A stretch of DNA of 64,000 bases, taken from the NCBI RefSeq assembly GCF_003946915.1, contig NZ_RPOC01000010.1, positions 1 through 64,000 on the forward strand. Reading direction: 5' to 3'. The notes under the pieces were generated by a model. The model searched no databases and was not told the DNA's origin. It was given only the letters and a program-made list of their open reading frames with translations. How positions within the stretch are numbered: the first letter of the stretch is position 1; every line of letters begins with the position of its first letter. The DNA is from Flavobacterium ustbae. GTDB taxonomy: Bacteria; Bacteroidota; Bacteroidia; Flavobacteriales; Flavobacteriaceae. Positions 10,724 to 60,925 of this stretch are shown piece by piece. Both the position numbers and the translations under genes were made by a program.

Positions 10724-10806
10724 TCCTAGCCCCGATAGAAGCGAAAATTCTTTTTCTGGCTTCTTTAGCCAGGAAAAGATTGTAGCGGATAGCGGGATTA
10801 GCTCCT
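10724..10806. repeat. REP-like palindromic element, copy 2
   Basis: CTAGCCCCGATAGAAGCG on the left and GTAGCGGATAGCGGGA on the right surround a stem TTTTTCTGGC/GCCAGGAAAA. The flanks match copy 1 (632-719) while the stem differs, with compensating changes. The stem could also act on transcription between kdpC and the porin gene. Confidence 0.72.
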
Positions 10807-15897: not shown

Positions 15898-16671
15898 TTA
15901 TGCATTCGAAGTATTATTCTTAATTTCCCTAACTTCACGTTTCAATTCCAAAAGCAAGTCTTTCATTGCTCCAGTTTCTGTTATTTCCTGTTTTTTATCC
16001 GAACGGCCGATGTTGCATTCGTATTCCCAAATCTCCAAAATATCAGAAGCTTTCACTTCATAATTCGGATAAAAACTATTATCGGATTCGAGAACCAAAG
16101 CGTTCTTTTTGTTTTTATTGAGACGTTTGTAGACCATTCCTTCGTTTTTAGTAATCAGGATATAGGTTTTCCCATCCATCACTTCGCCTAATTTTTCTAC
16201 GTAACGTCCAATAATAATCGACCCATCTTCATGCGGTGGCATTGAATCACCTTCAACGGGAAATCCGCGGTGTTTTCCTGGTCCTAAAAATGGAAGCGTA
16301 ATCTGCTGTAAACTTTCAATATATTCCGGATCGGCATATCCGTTTAGATAACCCGCTTTTGCTTTTTGAGATACGATTTCGATAAAATTTTCTCCAAAAC
16401 TATCCACTTGTATGGGCAAAATAAGTCGGTTGCCTTCTAGTTTTATCAAATTTTGCACGTCAATTTTACGTATATCGACCGATAATATCAAGTCAATACT
16501 CATATGAAAATATAATGCAATCTTCTTTAGAATATCATACGGAGCTTCCGAAGTTCCATCTTCGTATTTCACGTATCTTCCTCTGGTAATGCTAAGGTTT
16601 TCAGCTAATTTCTCCTGTGATATTTTATGCTTAACCCTTAACGCTCTGATGTTGTCTGAAAATAAGGACAT
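15898..16671 (-). CDS. XRE/S24 self-cleaving repressor (LexA/UmuD-like)
   Basis: 257 residues. N-terminal XRE helix-turn-helix (about 7-62, ISQEKLAENLSITRGRYVKYEDG) joined to a peptidase S24 domain. The cleavage site Ala106-Gly107 (KAKAGYL), nucleophile Ser143 (EGDSMPP) and general base Lys182 (GMVYKRL) are spaced as in LexA. The C-terminal 25 residues look coiled-coil. RecA filament-stimulated cleavage is expected in the family. It is divergent from a Y-family polymerase with only 84 bp between start codons, so it most likely represses both itself and the mutagenic polymerases. A UmuD-like partner role cannot be excluded. Confidence 0.88.
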   Translation of the reverse strand: MSLFSDNIRALRVKHKISQEKLAENLSITRGRYVKYEDGTSEAPYDILKKIALYFHMSIDLILSVDIRKIDVQNLIKLEGNRLILPIQVDSFGENFIEIVSQKAKAGYLNGYADPEYIESLQQITLPFLGPGKHRGFPVEGDSMPPHEDGSIIIGRYVEKLGEVMDGKTYILITKNEGMVYKRLNKNKKNALVLESDNSFYPNYEVKASDILEIWEYECNIGRSDKKQEITETGAMKDLLLELKREVREIKNNTSNA

Positions 16672-16679
16672 AATAAATT

Positions 16680-16724
16680 TGTTATAATTTGGAACAGCAA
16701 ATATACAAAAAATGTTATTATCTG
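16680..16724. promoter_or_regulatory. Candidate operator: direct repeat in the repressor/dinB gap
   Basis: TGTTATAATTTG (16680-16691) and TGTTATTATCTG (16713-16724) match at 10 of 12 positions and are 33 bp apart, about three helical turns. They flank the repressor's own -7 box. This is an unverified candidate binding pair for the XRE/S24 repressor. Confidence 0.35.
16698..16705 (-). promoter_or_regulatory. -7 box of the S24 repressor gene
   Basis: On the minus strand the sequence is TATATTTG, an exact TAnnTTTG match 27 bp from the repressor start codon. No TTG is seen at the usual distance. It lies 22 bp from the oppositely directed dinB box. Confidence 0.5.
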
Positions 16725-16727
16725 TAC

Positions 16728-16735
16728 TAATTTTG
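16728..16735 (+). promoter_or_regulatory. -7 box of the dinB-dnaE transcript
   Basis: TAATTTTG matches TAnnTTTG and is 20 bp before the dinB ATG. The two promoters point away from each other and overlap in their upstream parts, so one bound repressor could shut both. Confidence 0.55.
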
Positions 16736-16755
16736 TTTCATACAAAAACAAGGAA

Positions 16756-17937
16756 ATGGCACGGGCAATTGTACATATGGATTTGGATACCTTTTTTGTA
16801 TCCTGTGAACGACTCACTAACTCCGAACTCAATGGTATTCCGCTTATTGTAGGTGGTGGAGAACGCGGGGTGGTTGCTTCTTGCTCATATGAAGCACGTA
16901 CATTTGGAGTTCGTTCTGCAATGCCAATTGCCATGGCAATGAAACTTTGTCCGCAAGCGAAAATTATCAAAGGCGACATGGAATTATATTCGAAAATGTC
17001 TCATGATGTTACCGAAATTCTTCAGGAAAAAGCGCCCGTTTTAGAAAAAGCGAGTGTCGATGAATTTTATCTGGATATTACCGGAATGGACCGTTTTCAC
17101 GGAAGTTATAAATGGACAGATGAATTGGCTCAAAAAGTAATTAAAGAAACCGGGCTTCCTATTAGTTTTTCGTTATCGATTAATAAAACGGTTTCTAAAA
17201 TTGCTACTGGAGAAGGAAAACCTGTTGGGAATCTTGAAATTCCGGAACATAAAGTGCAGACATTTTTAAATCCGCTTTCGATTCAGAAAATACCAATGGT
17301 CGGAACGGTGACTTTTCAGCTTTTGTCCCGAATTGGCGTTCGTAAAATTCAGACTTTGGCCGAAATGCCCGCCGAAGTTTTACAGCAAATGATTGGCAAA
17401 AACGGGCTTGATATCTGGAAAAAAGCCAACGGAATCGATCATACACCTGTAGAACCTTATAGCGAACGAAAATCTATTTCGACCGAACATACTTTTTCAC
17501 AGGATACCATTGATATTGCAAAACTGAAAAGAGTGCTTTTGGGAATGGTTGAAAAACTGGCTTTCCAGCTTCGCTCAGAACAATGGCTGACCTCAACCGT
17601 TACAGTAAAAATTCGTTATGCCAATTTTGATACCGAAACCAAACAATGCCGTGTTGCTTACACTTCTGCAGATCATATTTTGACCAAAAATGTAATGGAA
17701 CTGTTCGAAAAAGTGTATCAGCGCCGAATGCGTCTCCGTTTGATTGGTGTTCGCTTCAGCGGATTGGTTCGCGGCACGTACCAAATCGATCTTTTTGAAG
17801 ACACTCAGGAAATGCTTTCGCTTTATGAAGCGATGGATAAAATGAAAAGCCGTTACGGTTTTGATGCCGTAATGCGTTGTGCAGGAGCTTCATTCAAACC
17901 AAATAATAAAGATGAAATTTTAAAACGCAACAAATAA
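16756..17937 (+). CDS. dinB: Y-family DNA polymerase IV
   Basis: 393 residues, full length. Catalytic residues: Asp8 region in HMDLDTFFVSCE and the Asp-Glu pair in KASVDEFYLDITG (about 104-116). The little-finger domain is at about 240-350, and a classical sliding-clamp motif QIDLF is near residue 343. It copies past damaged bases without proofreading. It is transcribed divergently from the S24 repressor, and its stop codon overlaps the start of the next polymerase gene (TAATG). This tight coupling suggests the two polymerases are made together after DNA damage. Confidence 0.93.
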   Translation: MARAIVHMDLDTFFVSCERLTNSELNGIPLIVGGGERGVVASCSYEARTFGVRSAMPIAMAMKLCPQAKIIKGDMELYSKMSHDVTEILQEKAPVLEKASVDEFYLDITGMDRFHGSYKWTDELAQKVIKETGLPISFSLSINKTVSKIATGEGKPVGNLEIPEHKVQTFLNPLSIQKIPMVGTVTFQLLSRIGVRKIQTLAEMPAEVLQQMIGKNGLDIWKKANGIDHTPVEPYSERKSISTEHTFSQDTIDIAKLKRVLLGMVEKLAFQLRSEQWLTSTVTVKIRYANFDTETKQCRVAYTSADHILTKNVMELFEKVYQRRMRLRLIGVRFSGLVRGTYQIDLFEDTQEMLSLYEAMDKMKSRYGFDAVMRCAGASFKPNNKDEILKRNK

Positions 17938-20900
17938 TGTATCTTAATTGTCATTCCTATCATTCTTTGCGTTATGGCACGATTCCGCTAAAAAATTTAG
18001 TTGAGAATGCCGTTTCTTATGGCATAAAAGCAATGGCTTTGACAGATATAAACACAGTTACCGGAATTTATGATTTTATAAAATTATGCGGCGAAAAGAA
18101 TATTAAACCTCTTATCGGAATGGAATTTCGCTGTAATCATCAATTCCGATACATTGGTTTAGCCAAAAATGCCAAAGGTTTAGGCGAAATGAATCGTTTT
18201 TTAACCGAACATAATTTCAGCGGCGAACCTTTGCCTTTGCAAGCACCCAAATTTAAATCGGCTTTTGTTATTTATACTTTAGAAAATGCTCCTGAAATTC
18301 TTCATGAAAATGAATTTATAGGCGTTCGTCCAGAAGGAGTTACAAGTCTTCTGACTTCAAAACATAAAAATAAAATCTCCAAAATGGTGGTTTTACAGCC
18401 TGTAACTTTTTCGATGAAAAAAGAATACAATCTGCATAAAGTCTTGCGTGCTATTGATACCAATATTATTTTATCAAAACTCACAGAAGCGGACTTTTGC
18501 AAGACTTCAGATTTTATGGTTCCGACAGAATCTCTTATTCCTTTTTATGAAAATTATCCGGAGATTTTATTCAATACACAAAAGATTATTGACGACTGTA
18601 ATTTTGAATATGATTTTTCAATTAAAAGAAATAAAAAATTCTTTACCGGAAGCCGTGAAGGAGATATAAAAAGACTAACCGAATTAACACTAGAAGGCTT
18701 TGAACACAGATATGGAAAAGAAAATAAAATTGCTGAAGAACGAGTTAAAAAAGAGCTGAAAGTTATTGATGAATTAAAATTTAGCGGTTACTTTTTAATT
18801 ACCTGGGATATTATTCAATACAGCAATAGTCAGGGATTTATGCATATTGGTCGCGGAAGCGGTGCCAACAGTATTATTGCTTATTGTCTCGGAATCACCG
18901 ACATCTGCCCTATTGAACTCGATTTATATTTTGAACGTTTTTTAAACCTGAACCGCAAAAGTCCGCCCGATTTTGATATCGACTGGAGCTGGCAAGAACG
19001 TGATGTGATTTTGAAATACATTTTTGGAAAATATGGTAAAGATCACGTGGCTTTCTGCGGAACGAATGTGGAATTTAAATACCGCTCTATTTTTAGAGAA
19101 GTCGGAAAAGTTTTTGGTCTTCCGAAAGAAGAATTAGATGTTTTAGCTAAAAATCCTGAAAACCTGCATCCGACAAATAAAATTGTAAGACTGGTTCAGG
19201 AATACGGGCATATGATGGAAAAATATCCCAACCAGCGCAGTATGCATGCCTGTGGAATTTTGATTTCTGAAGAACCAATTACGAATTATACACCTCTGGA
19301 AATGCCTCCAAAAGGATTTCCGATTGTACTTTTTGACATGCACACTGCAGAAGAAATTGGCTTTGACAAATTTGATATTTTAAGTCAGCGCGGAATCGGG
19401 CATATTGACGACAGCGTAAAACTAATTCAGAAAAATCGTGGTATAAAAATCGATATTCGTGATACTTCTATTTCAAAAGATGAAAAGATCTGTAATATTC
19501 ATTTAGCAAAAGGAGATACAATTGGCTGTTTTTATATCGAAAGTCCGGCGATGCGTGGTTTGCTTCGTCGTTTGAATTGTGATAATTATAAAGTTCTCGT
19601 GGCGGCTTCGTCTATTATTCGTCCCGGCGTGGCGCAATCGGGAATGATGAAAGAATATATTTTCAGACATAATTATCCAACGAAGTTTGACTATTTTCAT
19701 GATGTTTTTAGGGAACATCTCGGTGAAACTTACGGCATTATGGTGTATCAGGAAGATGTGATCAAAATCGCTCAGCATTACGGCGGACTTCCCGCTGCAG
19801 ACGGCGATATTCTGCGCCGTGCCATGTCTGGAAAAGGACGTTCTCTGGAAGCGCTTCAAAAAGTAAAGGACAATTTCTTTGCGAGTTGTGCTCAAAAAGG
19901 ACATCCATTAGCTTTAAGTCAGGAAATTTATCGTCAGATAGAATCTTTTGCGGGGTATTCTTTTTGTAAAGCACATTCGGCTTCTTATGCGGTAGAAAGC
20001 TATCAGAGCTTGTATTTGAAAGTGAATTATCCTGTCGAATTTATGACGGCGGTAATCAACAATCAGGGCGGTTTTTACAGAACGGAGGTTTATGTACACG
20101 AAGCGCGTATGTCTGGCGGAACAATTCATAATCCGTGTGTGAATAAAAGTGAATATCAAACGACTTTGTACGGAACTGATATTTATCTCGGTTTTATGCA
20201 TTTGCAGAGTCTGGAATCTAAAATCGCTTTTTTAATTGAATCTGAAAGAAACGAAAACGGTGATTATAGTTCTTTAGAAGATTTTATCAACCGCATTCCG
20301 ATTGGAATTGAAGGCATTAAAATCCTGATTTTTATTGGCGCTTTCCGCTTTACAGGAAAAACTAAAAATCAGCTTTTGGTGGTTGCCAGTTTACTTTTAA
20401 ATAATTACAAACCCGAAAACCGAAATTTAAAACTGCTTCAGGAACCTGCTAAAGAATACACGCTTCCTGTTTTGGAACGTTCTGTTTTTGAAGATGCTTT
20501 TGACGAAATTGAATTATTAAGTTTTCCGGTTTCGTGTACTGTTTTTGATATTTTACAGACCAAATACCGAGGTGCTATTATGGCCAAAGATTTAGTAAAA
20601 CATCATAAAAAACAAGTGAAAATGCTGGCGTATCTAATTTCTAGGAAACACGTTCCAACAAAACGAGGTGCTATGTATTTTGGAACCTGGATTGATCATG
20701 AAGGCACCTATTTTGACACGGCACATTTTCCTGATTCGTTAGAAAAAAATCCATTTCAAGGCGGAGGCTGTTATCTTTTGCTGGGAAACGTAGAAGTCGA
20801 TTATCATTTTCCAACGATTACGATTATCCGAATGGCAAAAATGCCTTTTATTCCGGATCCGCGTTATATGGATACAAAAGATCAGTATAAAACGCAGGGT

Positions 20901-20990
20901 CAGATTAGAGAAGATGTGAGTATGACAAATAGAAAACCGTATCCGCAGGAACATGAAATTAATATGCCAAGACACAGAATGAAGTTTTGA
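17937..20990 (+). CDS. DnaE-type polymerase alpha subunit, damage-locus paralogue
   Basis: 1017 residues, shorter than the replicative DnaE (about 1,150 or more) and close to the error-prone DnaE2 class. N-terminal PHP domain begins NCHSYHSLRYGT but reads LTDINTVTG where metal-binding PHP domains have an Asp-His, so its metal site is degraded. The polymerase core has GRGSGANSIIAYCLGI and the catalytic PPDFDIDW. Helix-hairpin-helix and OB-like parts follow (about 800-960). The start overlaps the dinB stop by one base. It likely extends from lesions bypassed by DinB; the role is inferred from company and divergence. Confidence 0.88.
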   Translation: MYLNCHSYHSLRYGTIPLKNLVENAVSYGIKAMALTDINTVTGIYDFIKLCGEKNIKPLIGMEFRCNHQFRYIGLAKNAKGLGEMNRFLTEHNFSGEPLPLQAPKFKSAFVIYTLENAPEILHENEFIGVRPEGVTSLLTSKHKNKISKMVVLQPVTFSMKKEYNLHKVLRAIDTNIILSKLTEADFCKTSDFMVPTESLIPFYENYPEILFNTQKIIDDCNFEYDFSIKRNKKFFTGSREGDIKRLTELTLEGFEHRYGKENKIAEERVKKELKVIDELKFSGYFLITWDIIQYSNSQGFMHIGRGSGANSIIAYCLGITDICPIELDLYFERFLNLNRKSPPDFDIDWSWQERDVILKYIFGKYGKDHVAFCGTNVEFKYRSIFREVGKVFGLPKEELDVLAKNPENLHPTNKIVRLVQEYGHMMEKYPNQRSMHACGILISEEPITNYTPLEMPPKGFPIVLFDMHTAEEIGFDKFDILSQRGIGHIDDSVKLIQKNRGIKIDIRDTSISKDEKICNIHLAKGDTIGCFYIESPAMRGLLRRLNCDNYKVLVAASSIIRPGVAQSGMMKEYIFRHNYPTKFDYFHDVFREHLGETYGIMVYQEDVIKIAQHYGGLPAADGDILRRAMSGKGRSLEALQKVKDNFFASCAQKGHPLALSQEIYRQIESFAGYSFCKAHSASYAVESYQSLYLKVNYPVEFMTAVINNQGGFYRTEVYVHEARMSGGTIHNPCVNKSEYQTTLYGTDIYLGFMHLQSLESKIAFLIESERNENGDYSSLEDFINRIPIGIEGIKILIFIGAFRFTGKTKNQLLVVASLLLNNYKPENRNLKLLQEPAKEYTLPVLERSVFEDAFDEIELLSFPVSCTVFDILQTKYRGAIMAKDLVKHHKKQVKMLAYLISRKHVPTKRGAMYFGTWIDHEGTYFDTAHFPDSLEKNPFQGGGCYLLLGNVEVDYHFPTITIIRMAKMPFIPDPRYMDTKDQYKTQGQIREDVSMTNRKPYPQEHEINMPRHRMKF

Positions 20991-20994
20991 TTTT

Positions 20995-21150
20995 TTTTTG
21001 AGCCACAAAGACGCAAAGTTTTATATAAAGACTTAAAAAAGAAAAGCTTTGCGCCTCTGCGTCTTTGCGAAATTAAAAAATAATGCATCGAATGAGTTGA
21101 ATTTGCGCGCAAAGTCACAGAGTCGCAAAGTTTTATTCAAAGCCTTAAAA
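20995..21150. repeat. Inverted word-repeat region after the dnaE paralogue
   Basis: GCCACAAAGACGCAAAGTTTT (21002 onward) is inverted at about 21043-21070 (AAGCTTTGCGCCTCTGCGTCTTTGCG), and a third degenerate copy GCGCAAAGTCACAGAGTCGCAAAG starts at about 21106. No gene is seen in the 213-bp gap. Confidence 0.7.
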
Positions 21151-21203
21151 AAGCTTTATAAAAAATTAAATAACAGAAATAGAACATTTTACGTTATATA
21201 CAA

Positions 21204-22583
21204 ATGAAAAAGCAGGAATATGCCATAGTAGATATTGAGACCACCGGTGGCAATGCCAGTCACAGCCGTATTACCGAAATCGCGATTATTATTCACGACG
21301 GAATAACTGTACTCGATCGTTATGAAACGCTTGTGAATCCGGAAAAAGATATTCCGCCTGCGATTTTTGGGTTAACCGGAATTAATAATGAAATGGTTGC
21401 TCATGCCCCAATCTTTGATGATATTTCTGAAAAAGTGCTGGAAATGCTCACAGATCGTATTTTCGTAGCGCACAATGTCAATTTCGATTATTCGTTTGTA
21501 CACCATCAGCTGGCTCAGGCAGGATTTAAGTGGACTGCTAAAAAACTCTGTACGGTTCGTGCTGCCCGAAAAATCAAACCCGGACTGGGTTCTTATAGTT
21601 TGGGAAATCTTTGTAATTCCTTAAATATTGGTTTAGAAAACCGACACCGCGCGGGCGGAGATGCCGATGCAACTGCGCAATTATTCTCGCTTTTACGCGA
21701 ATGGGATGATGAAGGCATTATTGATAAAATGATCAAAAAAACGGCTCCAGATCAGCGTTTACCTCCAAATTTACCGCCGGAAGATTTTAATGCTTTGCCC
21801 GAAAAACCGGGAATTTATTATTTCTATAATCAGGCGAAAAAAGTGATCTATGTTGGAAAAGCCGTTAATCTTAAAAAACGCGTTACATCGCATTTTACAG
21901 GAAATAACATCAATCCGCAGCGACAGCATTTTCTACGGGATATTTACGGAATTTCTTTTGAAGTTTGTGCTACCGAATTAATGGCGCTTCTGTTAGAATG
22001 TACCGAAATCAAAAAACTCTGGCCAACTTATAACAGAGCCTTAAAACGTTTTGAAGCCAAATTTGGAATCTATCAATACGAAGCGAGAAATGGTTATAAA
22101 TATCTTGCAATTGGCAAAGTGAGTAAATTTCAAATCTGTATCCATGAGTTTAACAGCCTTCATGTTGGGATTAATTTATTGAGAAGTCTTGCCGAACAAT
22201 TTGAAATTGATCATCGGTTCTGCAAATATTCCAGACCCGAAGAAGGGGAATTTTTCTATACTCCAGAAGTTAAAGAGCTTCCAGATGTTTTATTGCATAA
22301 CGATCAAGTCGATAATGCAATTGATTTTCTATTGAATAATAGACCGAGTTTTGCCATTATTGACAAAGGAAGAACTTCAGATGAAAGAAGCTGCATATGG
22401 ATCGAAAACGGCCGTTTTCATGGAATGGGTTATATTCCGAGAGATGTTGCTATCAATGATCCAGAAGATGTAAAAAGTTATGTTACGCTTTATAAAAGCA
22501 ATCAATATATGGAGCAGTTAATTTTTGCTTACGCCGAAAAATATCCAGGTAAAGTGTTCTTTAACAAACACTTTCTAAAGTAA
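21204..22583 (+). CDS. DnaQ-like exonuclease fused to GIY-YIG endonuclease
   Basis: 459 residues. Residues 5-170 form a DEDD exonuclease with ExoI Asp10-Glu12 (VDIETTGG), ExoII NVNFDYSF and ExoIII HRAGGDAD. About 200-280 is a GIY-YIG nuclease, PGIYYFYNQAKKVIYVGKA with the following Lys/Arg-rich helix, as in UvrC and Cho. The C-terminal 170 residues are unassigned. Exonuclease plus UvrC-type nuclease fusions occur in several bacteria. Here it lies after two lesion-bypass polymerases, so it may serve as a proofreading or incision factor in the same damage response. Confidence 0.9.
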   Translation: MKKQEYAIVDIETTGGNASHSRITEIAIIIHDGITVLDRYETLVNPEKDIPPAIFGLTGINNEMVAHAPIFDDISEKVLEMLTDRIFVAHNVNFDYSFVHHQLAQAGFKWTAKKLCTVRAARKIKPGLGSYSLGNLCNSLNIGLENRHRAGGDADATAQLFSLLREWDDEGIIDKMIKKTAPDQRLPPNLPPEDFNALPEKPGIYYFYNQAKKVIYVGKAVNLKKRVTSHFTGNNINPQRQHFLRDIYGISFEVCATELMALLLECTEIKKLWPTYNRALKRFEAKFGIYQYEARNGYKYLAIGKVSKFQICIHEFNSLHVGINLLRSLAEQFEIDHRFCKYSRPEEGEFFYTPEVKELPDVLLHNDQVDNAIDFLLNNRPSFAIIDKGRTSDERSCIWIENGRFHGMGYIPRDVAINDPEDVKSYVTLYKSNQYMEQLIFAYAEKYPGKVFFNKHFLK

Positions 22584-22646
22584 ATAAGAAATTATATAAG
22601 ATCTAAAATTTGAAAAAGCTGTAAATTTATGTTATAATCATTTTTA

Positions 22647-22795
22647 ACACATAGTCCCGAAGCTTCGGGATAGATTTTATTATTAGTAAAAGAGATTAAT
22701 GAAAGAAACTCTTTTCTAACACATAGTTATAGCTATGTGTATTTAATTTTTTAAGCTAAAAAAACTATCCCGAAGCTTCGTGACTATGTGTTTAA
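22647..22795. repeat. Nested inverted-repeat element between nuclease genes
   Basis: Outer arms 22647-22673 and 22769-22795 are inverted over 27 bp with one mismatch; each includes the self-complementary CCCGAAGCTTCGGG core. Inside lies a further hairpin ACACATAG/CTATGTGT (about 22720-22741). No coding capacity, no flanking target duplication recognised. The ACACATAG boundary word is shared with 7502-7739. Confidence 0.82.
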
Positions 22796-22837
22796 AATTT
22801 AGCACTAAGCAGTTTAAGACAACTAATTAAATCTACT

Positions 22838-23635
22838 ATGAAAATAGCCACTTATAACGTAAACGGAGTCAACGGACGATTGAATGTTTTATTACAATGG
22901 CTCGAAGAAGCAAAACCCGATATTGTATGTCTTCAGGAATTAAAAGCGCCACAGGACAAATTTCCAATAAAGGCTATTAACGACGCGGGATATAATGCTA
23001 TTTGGCATGGGCAAAAACAATGGAACGGCGTTGCAATCTTAGCCCGAAACATGGAAATTGAAGAAATAACACGCATACTTCCGGGCGATAAAGACGATGT
23101 ACAAAGTCGTTATGTAGAAGCTTTAATTGACGGAATTGTAATTGCTTGTCTGTATCTCCCGAACGGAAATCCTGCTCCGGGACCAAAATTAGAATACAAA
23201 ATGAAATGGTTTAATCGTCTGGCGCATCGCACTGAAACTTTATTAAAATTAAAAGTTCCCGTGATATTGGTTGGCGATTACAATGTTATGCCAACAGAAT
23301 TAGATGTTTATAAACCCGAAAAGTGGGTAAAAGACGCTCTTTTTTTACCCGAAGTCAGAAAGGCTTTTGCATCTATTGTTGCTCAGGGATGGACAGATGC
23401 GATTCGAACATTGTATCCTAATGAAAAAATATATACGTTTTGGGATTATTTCCGCAATGCTTATCAGAGAGATGCCGGTCTTAGAATTGATCATTTTTTA
23501 TTAAGTCCGCAAATTGTTAAAATGCTGCGTTCTGGCGGAGTTGACCGACATGTTCGCGGTTGGGAAAAAACAAGTGATCATGCGCCTGTTTGGATTGAAA
23601 TTGAAAAAAATAAAAAGAATCATGACATTATTTAA
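22838..23635 (+). CDS. xth: Exodeoxyribonuclease III
   Basis: 265 residues, endonuclease/exonuclease/phosphatase fold. Visible active-site elements: YNVNGVNGR (5-13), CLQELKAP with catalytic Glu (about 34), YLPNGNP (about 108), VGDYNVMP (about 149), and SDHAPVWIEIE at the end with the catalytic Asp-His. It cuts DNA at abasic sites and degrades 3' ends during base excision repair. Its last 14 bases overlap the start of alkB, so the two are translationally coupled. Confidence 0.93.
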   Translation: MKIATYNVNGVNGRLNVLLQWLEEAKPDIVCLQELKAPQDKFPIKAINDAGYNAIWHGQKQWNGVAILARNMEIEEITRILPGDKDDVQSRYVEALIDGIVIACLYLPNGNPAPGPKLEYKMKWFNRLAHRTETLLKLKVPVILVGDYNVMPTELDVYKPEKWVKDALFLPEVRKAFASIVAQGWTDAIRTLYPNEKIYTFWDYFRNAYQRDAGLRIDHFLLSPQIVKMLRSGGVDRHVRGWEKTSDHAPVWIEIEKNKKNHDII

Positions 23636-24248
23636 CGACACCGAATTGTTTACAACAGGTTTGGGAGGAAAAAAAATATTTGACATCCCAGATTCTGAAT
23701 TGATTTTAATCGATAATTTCTTTACCAAAGAAGAATCTGATATTTTTTATGAAAGAATTCTTCGTAAAACAAAATGGAGAGAACATCAAATGGAAATTTA
23801 TGATAAAACGTATACTGTTCCGAGAATGATTGCCTGGTACGAAGATAAAGATAATGTTGGCGCAGACCCAAAAGGTCCAGATTGGACTTACGAGTTATTA
23901 AAAATAAGAGGCCGCGTTGAAAAAGAAACGCAACTTGATTTTAACACCGTACTTCTAAATTTGTACCGGGATGGAAATGATGGCGTGGGCTGGCACAGCG
24001 ACAAAGAACACAATACGGGACCCGATCCTATTATTGCTTCGGTTACTTTTGGAGAAACTAGAATGTTTAAACTTCGTCATAAATACAGTAAAGAAATTCC
24101 GCAAATCGAAATTCCGCTGCATCATGGATCTTTTTTATTAATGGCTGGAACTACTAATAGTTTTTGGCAGCATCAAGTTCCAAAAACAGCTCGAAATGTT
24201 TTGCCAAGGATCAATCTTACCTTTAGGAGAACCAATCGAAATATTTGA
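23622..24248 (+). CDS. alkB: AlkB-like DNA repair dioxygenase
   Basis: 208 residues from the ATG at 23622; a longer frame from 23514 would lie inside xth and is rejected. Iron ligands His125 and Asp127 (GWHSD) and His184 (QHQV) are present, as are the 2-oxoglutarate-binding arginines near the C-terminus (RNVLPRINLTFRR). AlkB removes methyl groups from 1-methyladenine and 3-methylcytosine by oxidative demethylation. It overlaps xth by 14 bp, tying alkylation repair to base excision repair in one transcript. Confidence 0.92.
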   Translation: MTLFNDTELFTTGLGGKKIFDIPDSELILIDNFFTKEESDIFYERILRKTKWREHQMEIYDKTYTVPRMIAWYEDKDNVGADPKGPDWTYELLKIRGRVEKETQLDFNTVLLNLYRDGNDGVGWHSDKEHNTGPDPIIASVTFGETRMFKLRHKYSKEIPQIEIPLHHGSFLLMAGTTNSFWQHQVPKTARNVLPRINLTFRRTNRNI

Positions 24249-24374
24249 TTTTTATCGAATTGGGTTTGTTTTTTTAATACTTTTTTTATTTAATAACCGT
24301 AAGATATTACTTAATCTAAAAGTTAAAACACACACTGTATGAAGCTTTTATTAGGCAGAACCTATCTTTTTTAC

Positions 24375-24382
24375 TATTTTTG
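24375..24382 (+). promoter_or_regulatory. -7 box before the DUF1810 gene
   Basis: TATTTTTG matches TAnnTTTG 28 bp before the ATG at 24410. It suggests the gene has its own promoter separate from xth-alkB. No clear TTG element. Confidence 0.45.
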
Positions 24383-24409
24383 CAACCTTTTTTTAAATAC
24401 AATACCGTA

Positions 24410-24871
24410 ATGGCTTATTCGAACAATGATTTAGCGCGTTTCTTAGACGCACAGAACAAACTTTATCTTACTGCTCTTTCTGAAATCAGCAAAGGAAAAA
24501 AAGAAACACACTGGATGTGGTTTATTTTTCCGCAAATAAAAGGCTTAGGAAAAAGCGATACTGCAAATCTTTATGCCATTAATGACTTAAAAGAAGCTTC
24601 TGATTATTTGGAACATCCCATTTTAGGAAAACATTTAATTGAAATTTCAGAATTATTACTAACCTTTAAAATGAAATCGGCTGACGGTATTTTTGGAGAT
24701 TTAGATGCTCGAAAGTTGCGTTCATGCATGACTTTATTTTCTTTGGTAGAAAATGCAAATCCGATATTTCAGGAAATTCTGGACGCTTTCTTCTCTGGAG
24801 AAATCGATCCGCTAACTTTGTCTATTATTAATTCAACTATAAAATCTGTTGATGAACCGGTTGTATTATAG
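24410..24871 (+). CDS. DUF1810 family protein
   Basis: 153 residues from the ATG at 24410; the ten extra codons of the longer frame overlap the promoter box. Recognisable family features: DLARFLDAQ at the start, THWMWFIFPQIKGLG (about 38-52), and RKLRSCMTLF (about 104-113). The fold is all-helical and the biochemical function is not established. It directly follows the damage-repair genes but has its own promoter box and terminator, so membership in that response is uncertain. Cytoplasmic. Confidence 0.8.
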   Translation: MAYSNNDLARFLDAQNKLYLTALSEISKGKKETHWMWFIFPQIKGLGKSDTANLYAINDLKEASDYLEHPILGKHLIEISELLLTFKMKSADGIFGDLDARKLRSCMTLFSLVENANPIFQEILDAFFSGEIDPLTLSIINSTIKSVDEPVVL

Positions 24872-60727: not shown

Positions 60728-60795
60728 TGTATTAATTATGAATTATGGCTTATAAATTTTGAATTATTTTGACTAAACTCGATTTTACCGAGTAT

Positions 60796-60925
60796 GCGTG
60801 AGGGATTGCAACGGAAATCTTTTTGTTTTTTCTTTAAAAACAAAAAGATTATAGTGAAAAGCCCGACCCTAAAAACAAAAGCTTCTACGCGTTTGCTAAA
60901 TGCTTTTGTTTTTAGGGTCACGCCC
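60796..60925. repeat. REP-like palindromic element, copy 3 (related)
   Basis: Two nested hairpins: ATCTTTTTGTTTTT/AACAAAAAGAT near 60818-60849, and a perfect 17-bp stem ACCCTAAAAACAAAAGC (60866-60882) with its inverse (60902-60918). The flank CGGAAATC and the AAAAGATT after the first stem match copies 1 and 2. It lies between the acyl-CoA dehydrogenase and rpsU. Confidence 0.72.

Follow-up and report, generated by a model that had tools for sequence, protein, structure and literature searches.

The Bacteroidetes have been described as lacking LexA homologues and as carrying instead S24 repressors that resemble the CI proteins of phages (Sanchez-Osuna et al. 2021, PMC8565304). The text of that study gives GGA-N5-TCC or CTAA-N5-TTAG as the main operators of these non-canonical LexA proteins, reports that diverged variants are functional, and sets the precedent for the group through mitomycin induction and gel shifts. 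In Elizabethkingia the operator is the variant TTAC-AAATT-GTAA, and the regulator and the divergent error-prone polymerase genes are induced by mitomycin; predicted targets across the group comprise dinB-dnaE, recA, recQ, topoisomerase IV, a COG4277-COG1573 operon and a GIY-YIG exonuclease. A second study describes the active PolY2-DnaE2 pair of Bacteroidetes as a putative mutasome acting with RecA (Timinskas & Venclovas 2019, PMC6511836). Here we analyse a locus of Flavobacterium ustbae (contig NZ_RPOC01000010.1 of assembly GCF_003946915.1, positions 1 to 64,000, hereafter the window) in which the gene of such a repressor faces dinB and dnaE2. Operators like those between the two also precede recA, uvrA, recQ, a topoisomerase B subunit gene, a radical SAM/uracil-DNA glycosylase (rSAM/UDG) operon and a second dinB-dnaE2-alkB set, and because of these positions we consider the protein to be probably the general SOS repressor of F. 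ustbae, an S24 protein that resembles phage CI and is of the non-canonical LexA kind of Bacteroidetes, rather than the switch of a separate module.

The repressor and the divergent polymerase genes

The central features, in window coordinates, are:
15898..16671, minus strand: predicted SOS repressor, 257 aa, with CI-like helix-turn-helix, S24 peptidase and C-terminal helix (Pfam, alignment, structure model)
16680..16696, no strand: putative operator O1, TGTTAT-AATTT-GGAACA, adjoining the putative -7 box of the repressor (footprint over 80 relatives, weight matrix)
16698..16705, minus strand: putative repressor -7 box, TATATTTG (sequence)
16713..16729, no strand: weaker putative operator O2, TGTTAT-TATCT-GTACTA, 9/12 against the palindrome (footprint)
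16728..16735, plus strand: putative dinB -7 box, TAATTTTG, overlapped by O2 (sequence)
16756..17937, plus strand: dinB of the Bacteroidetes PolY2-like type; it has the catalytic acids, the clamp motif QIDLF and perhaps a tail like the RecA N terminus
17937..20990, plus strand: dnaE2, error-prone Pol III alpha paralogue, overlapping dinB

All genes named in the original prediction, which had been made from the letters of the DNA, are open frames at the positions and with the domains that it gave. The repressor has a CI-type helix-turn-helix at its N terminus (PF01381, 39.5 bits against a cut-off of 23; HTH_3/HTH_19 in Pfam) followed by Peptidase_S24, and no Pfam match to the winged-helix DNA-binding domain that marks a canonical LexA. 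The predicted Ala106-Gly107 cleavage site and Ser143-Lys182 dyad are present and nearly invariant: across 36 aligned repressors Gly107, Ser143 and Lys182 never change, and Ala106 is replaced once, by Met. A structure model of low confidence (mean predicted local distance difference test score, pLDDT, 69) has a helical helix-turn-helix, an S24 beta domain and a C-terminal helix at 232-255 (pLDDT 57-70). Its best full-length fold matches, at low TM-scores, are the repressors of phages 186 and lambda; LexA ranks lower, and the P22 c2 domain is also among the matches. Epoxidase chains (2bnm and relatives) stand within the first 20, between the phage repressors and LexA, and are taken to reflect a similar general domain layout.

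Profile searches of the F. ustbae genome returned a single recA and two S24 proteins. In the second of these Pfam recognises the S24 domain alone, without the LexA DNA-binding domain; of another LexA there is no sign. This second protein has 227 aa (L101, 1441-2124; G000:C55), and an Ala-Gly and Ser/Lys pattern can be seen in it by eye. Elsewhere in the genus some genomes have two paralogues of the repressor (L219/L233 in genome G004, L025/L091, L047/L092); in G004 one has a TGTTAC-type operator and the other a TGTGAC-like one. A code linking recognition-helix residues to operator letters was sought and given up, as TRGRYAKYE accompanies TGTTAC operators in some cases and TGCTAC operators in others. 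In the repressor tree, 62 'TGTTAC' labels were assigned by default after inspection of the footprint rather than individually, and some of these have one TGATAC half.

The sequence TAATG at 17935-17939 holds both the dinB stop and the dnaE2 start, as predicted. DinB (IMS and IMS_C domains) retains the acids D9, D102 and E103, and the catalytic aspartates are kept in DnaE2 (DNA_pol3_alpha, finger, PHP and HHH_6 domains), these residues corresponding to those of the E. coli enzymes; judged from them, both are apparently active polymerases. That a full DinB with clamp motif QIDLF (residues 343-347) stands in the place of ImuB is borne out by the catalytic acids and by the lack of any further Pfam domain after IMS_C, whereas ImuB is catalytically dead and carries ImuB-C. 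No ImuA was seen in the block, and PF00154 matches only recA in the genome, though that model may miss ImuA. The DinB tail gives an ungapped 23-residue match to the N terminus of F. ustbae RecA with a score of 35, which 4 of 500 shuffles reach. Three Y-family genes were found with PF00817: the window dinB, a Pol IV-like gene and the dinB of the second dinB-dnaE2 pair.

That second pair (copy B) is 80% and 75% identical to the window pair. Upstream of it lie O1 and an altered O2, no repressor gene adjoins it, and an alkB gene, 62% identical to the alkB of the window, follows its dnaE2 after 24 bp. In the copy-B loci L074, L082, L084 and L099 a receiver-like gene lies divergent to dinB, at the place that the repressor holds in copy A; Pfam confirms the receiver domain in L099 only.

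Operators between the repressor and dinB

Relatives were sampled as the best 80 of 343 dnaE2 loci, every one from Flavobacterium records, and the repressor lies beside dinB in 63 of them (tblastn). Set side by side, their intergenic regions contain two conserved 17-bp elements, O1 with the consensus TGTTAY-N5-RKAACA and O2 with the consensus TGTTAY-N5-GTACTA, the latter running onto the dinB -7 box; in the window the two are 33 bp apart, start to start. The -7 boxes were assigned against the Bacteroidetes consensus, TAnnTTTG. With O1 taken to be the stretch closest to TGTTACN5GTAACA (9 to 12 of 12 letters) and O2 by the TAATTTTG box, O1 begins 33 or 34 bp before the start of the 17-mer ending on that box in all 82 dinB upstream regions, namely the 80 relatives, the window and the second F. 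ustbae copy.

The O1 of the window is imperfect, and its match strength on the weight matrix is reached by 0.4% of shuffled sequences. The palindrome is perfect in several relatives, among them L057 and L067, where O1 is TGTTAC-AAATT-GTAACA when read from the repressor gene. Half-site letters of Flavobacterium repressor operators vary (TGTTAC, TGCTAC, TGATAC, TGTGA), and the letters of O2 are good in most loci. Where the repressor was not detected, in 17 of the 80 loci, O1 is still present at 9 to 11 of 12, and for eight of these loci a repressor-bearing copy is listed in the same strain. Neither GGA-N5-TCC nor CTAA-N5-TTAG was found in 16672-16755. Another operator candidate, the perfect palindrome TTTTGT-N5-ACAAAA before dinB, was rejected because it is absent from the majority of the more distant loci; the genome has 54 copies of TTTGTN5ACAAA, compared with 31 of its reversed control.

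Predicted regulon of F. ustbae

The 4.94-Mb genome was searched with the degenerate pattern TGWTMYN5RKAWCA, the reversed pattern serving as control. The 18 sites found barely differ in number from the 15 of the control, so the case in F. ustbae depends on which genes the sites precede. All 18 contexts were inspected; nine lie inside or at the end of open reading frames and nine upstream of one, at the distances given here from the start:
repressor/dinB of the window (copy A)
dinB-dnaE2-alkB, copy B
uvrA, 67 bp, perfect palindrome
recQ, 56 bp
type IIA topoisomerase B subunit (ParE or GyrB), 67 bp
recA, 121 bp
TIGR03916-TIGR03915 rSAM/UDG-linked operon, 85 bp
146-aa secreted-looking protein, 66 bp (site at L104 1501-1517, reading frame at 1583-2023, G000:C11:19484)
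pssA-like gene, 13 bp

Seven of the nine precede SOS-type genes. Finding at least 8 of 18 sites upstream has a probability of about 0.002 if some 14% fall upstream by chance, a rate that is a rough reading from Flavobacterium johnsoniae CI04 and Flavobacterium aquariorum. The operator before the 146-aa protein is one letter off a perfect palindrome, and the protein itself has no Pfam or NCBIfam match.

In F. johnsoniae CI04 the pattern occurs 34 times, compared with 14 for the control. Five of these sites precede uvrA, topoisomerase B, the repressor/dinB-A pair and two additional dinB genes, of which one is a shorter frame of 298 aa; 25 are inside reading frames, two stand before other frames (one itself inside a frame) and two are intergenic with no frame near. 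The uvrA and topoisomerase sites are identical in letters between F. ustbae and F. johnsoniae CI04, at distances equal within 1 bp. F. aquariorum, whose repressor is 84% identical, has 17 sites compared with 19 for the control. One is at its own repressor/dinB, two precede other frames (one itself inside a frame) and 14 are inside frames.

From these positions a working model of the switch can be proposed. In the undamaged cell the repressor would sit on O1 and O2 and silence both its own gene and dinB-dnaE2. It is predicted from the operators to act in trans on the second dinB-dnaE2-alkB, recA, uvrA, recQ, the topoisomerase B subunit gene and the rSAM/UDG operon. On damage, by analogy with its family, RecA filaments would trigger cleavage at Ala106-Gly107 through Ser143 and Lys182. 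This would free expression of DinB and DnaE2, which are likely to form, together with the clamp and RecA, a single working mutasome.

Trans sites across the genus

Eighteen of 30 genus genomes have a match to the repressor, full-length in 15 at 49-100% identity. The uvrA promoter was compared in 29 genomes, 28 of the genus and F. ustbae, with the uvrA start relocated in 26 of the 29 loci and kept at its earlier placement in G011, G012 and G023. All four genomes with a repressor at least 98% identical, F. ustbae included, have a site at -83/-84 matching 11 or 12 of 12 letters. A site of at least 11/12 is found in none of the 12 genomes with a 49-83% repressor and in none of the 13 without a full-length one, the best other match in a uvrA promoter being 10/12 at -220 in G022 (7/12 is the best in G018). 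The 17-mer at -83 itself scores 9/12 in G004 (repressor 83%), G010 and G014 and 8/12 in G028, and the repressor was not found in the last three. In the aligned promoters (24 of 27 loci gave a start; G018 and G021 not included) the right half TTAACA at -83 is kept in several genomes with and without the repressor, and the full left half is present only in the clade of the window. This pattern fits either the gain of a site in an old promoter or the decay of an old site.

For recA, a 10/12 site with a GGAACA half lies at -137 to -152 in F. ustbae, G015 and G008 (three of 30 promoters, the recA of G006 being left out), and recA appears to be the weaker case of a repressor target. In G020, with a repressor of 54% identity, TGCTAT-N5-RTAGCA stands before both the repressor and recA. 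Since the uvrA operator is confined to four of 29 genomes, all with a repressor at least 98% identical, the predicted content of the regulon differs within one genus.

Extent of the regulon

Several observations weigh against a general SOS regulon. The number of sites is not clearly above the control in F. ustbae and not above it at all in F. aquariorum, where the one site of 17 that adjoins an SOS-type gene is that of its own repressor/dinB. At uvrA the operator stands clear of the putative -7 box, on its upstream side, and the recA sites reach only 10/12 in their three promoters, with unrelated 10/12 matches in G016 and G019. Near dinB itself, in three of the 17 repressor-less loci (L063, L084, L090), O2 matches at only 4/12 and the spacing is one base longer.

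A rival reading is that the repressor controls only itself and the dinB-dnaE2 copies, in the manner of HdiR or UmuDAb, with the sites at uvrA, recA, recQ and topoisomerase being due to chance or unimportant; site counts like those of the control in two of three genomes, the single SOS-type site of F. aquariorum, and the absence of uvrA sites from all 12 genomes with a more distant repressor, would then be expected. We nevertheless regard it as unlikely, given the uvrA and topoisomerase B operators shared letter for letter by F. ustbae and F. johnsoniae CI04 and the preponderance of SOS-type genes behind the upstream sites of F. ustbae.

A more tentative proposal, which we hold to be possible without favouring it, is that an SOS regulon has been caught growing. 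Many Flavobacterium repressors would keep only the autoregulated dinB-dnaE2, and the clade of the window would have newly recruited uvrA, recA, recQ, the topoisomerase B subunit and the rSAM/UDG operon through new TGTTAC-N5-GTAACA operators in old promoters, with repressor and operator drifting together elsewhere (TGTTAC, TGCTAC, TGATAC, TGTGA). Were this true, the genus would offer a natural series for a phage-type repressor taking over the SOS response.

Neighbouring genes

Downstream of dnaE2 the block continues, all on the plus strand, with:
21204..22583: DnaQ-like exonuclease with GIY-YIG nuclease (RNase_T and GIY-YIG domains); a neighbour, operator not found
22838..23635: xth, exonuclease III family (Exo_endo_phos in Pfam, exodeoxyribonuclease III in NCBIfam); a sporadic neighbour
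23622..24248: alkB-like dioxygenase (2OG-FeII_Oxy_2), tied to dinB-dnaE2 in relatives and in the second F. ustbae copy
24410..24871: DUF1810 protein; a neighbour, its membership in the module without support

The original prediction had joined these genes to dinB and dnaE2 as a dedicated inducible mutagenesis and repair module, apart from the general SOS regulon. The predicted overlap of xth with alkB (ATG at 23622) is there and measures 14 nucleotides, and the genes do travel together within a limited set of relatives. A histidine-kinase gene flanks 40 of the 80 dnaE2 loci, as in the window, and all 40 members of this synteny group keep the repressor, dinB, dnaE2, alkB and DUF1810, which shows conservation of the locus beyond chance; DnaQ-GIY is near dnaE2 in 35 of them and xth in 19. 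Outside the group the linkage breaks, with DnaQ-GIY in 7 of 40 loci, DUF1810 in 5 and xth in none, although in 36 of these loci the right flank extends for 4 kb or more. The expected co-conservation among relatives therefore holds inside the synteny group and fails beyond it.

Upstream of DnaQ-GIY, xth and DUF1810 no operator better than in shuffled sequence was found (P 0.11 to 0.68). Direct repeats of 41 nucleotides lie between dnaE2 and DnaQ (21001-21153), and inverted repeats of 39 nucleotides, accompanied by terminator-like hairpins, separate DnaQ from xth (22640-22798); both arrangements argue against one operon. With operators standing before general SOS genes as well, and no sign of another LexA in the genome from the S24 profile search and Pfam, a module of its own is highly improbable. 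What stands of the prediction is an apparently self-cleaving, LexA-like repressor opposite DinB and DnaE2, a pair distinct from ImuA-ImuB-DnaE2; its separateness from the general SOS regulon does not. On present evidence DnaQ-GIY, xth and DUF1810 appear to be neighbours, with no operator of the repressor found before them. DnaQ may be controlled from another site, a GIY-YIG exonuclease being among the targets predicted elsewhere (PMC8565304).

A conserved (A/G)CGTTATA element (window 21187-21203) precedes the DnaQ-GIY start codon by no more than 25 bp in 37 of the 42 loci of relatives in which this gene occurs. A similar sequence, a 16-bp direct repeat, lies upstream of the second S24 gene (L101, about 2130-2180), a possible candidate link between the two.

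By operon linkage alkB belongs with dinB-dnaE2 as an old partner: it is kept in the synteny group, is present in copy B, and begins no more than 120 bp behind dnaE2 in 10 of the 80 loci. Elsewhere in the window, three copies of the Flavo-1 RNA (Rfam RF01705) score above the gathering threshold, at 634-715, 10724-10803 and 60782-60872, on the plus strand.

That the repressor is a stranded prophage CI protein without a cellular regulon, as its CI-like helix-turn-helix and phage-repressor fold matches might suggest, is scarcely credible for a highly conserved protein kept beside dinB in most loci, with operators before host repair genes and with no phage-like protein other than itself among the 10 window proteins searched by Pfam.

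Comparison with known systems

Set against known systems, the locus shares with ImuA-ImuB-DnaE2 a Y-family protein and a DnaE2 under a damage-type repressor, and differs in its DinB, with catalytic acids kept and no Pfam domain after IMS_C, and in having no ImuA in the block. HdiR and UmuDAb are likewise non-LexA S24 regulators of error-prone polymerases; they have minimal regulons, and in the text of PMC8565304 UmuDAb clusters with UmuD and HdiR with Streptococcus phage repressors. The putative PolY2-DnaE2 mutasome described in PMC6511836 likewise combines, in one operon and without ImuB-C, DnaE2 and a Y-family polymerase that appears to be active; its figure example is from Cellulophaga algicola, whereas F. 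ustbae has two such operons, one of them ending in alkB.

The likeness is greatest to the non-canonical Bacteroidetes LexA proteins. A CI-like helix-turn-helix with S24 domain, the Ala-Gly and Ser-Lys residues, an extra C-terminal helix, a palindrome with a 5-bp spacer in the repressor's own promoter and the target dinB-dnaE are all held in common, as are the predicted targets recA, recQ, topoisomerase IV and the COG4277-COG1573 operon. The Flavobacterium operator, TGTTAC-N5-GTAACA, is neither of the main motifs, and its core is that of the Elizabethkingia TTAC-AAATT-GTAA; as PMC8565304 reports diverged variants to be functional, the difference does not exclude membership. The words uvrA and Flavobacterium are not in the main text of that paper (supplements lay outside the search), and by title and abstract the literature search found no paper on how Flavobacterium controls its SOS genes (supplements and papers under subscription likewise outside it).

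Flavobacterium is a genus with laboratory genetics, and it can now be assigned a likely SOS repressor together with an operator and a concrete set of targets. Because target genes and operator letters differ among relatives, a comparison of a small number of species could test directly how an SOS regulon gains or loses genes. What is central to the finding, a phage-type substitute for LexA and a PolY2-DnaE2 pair, is already known from other Bacteroidetes; a further operator variant, the predicted Flavobacterium regulon and its apparent differences within one genus are what this locus adds.

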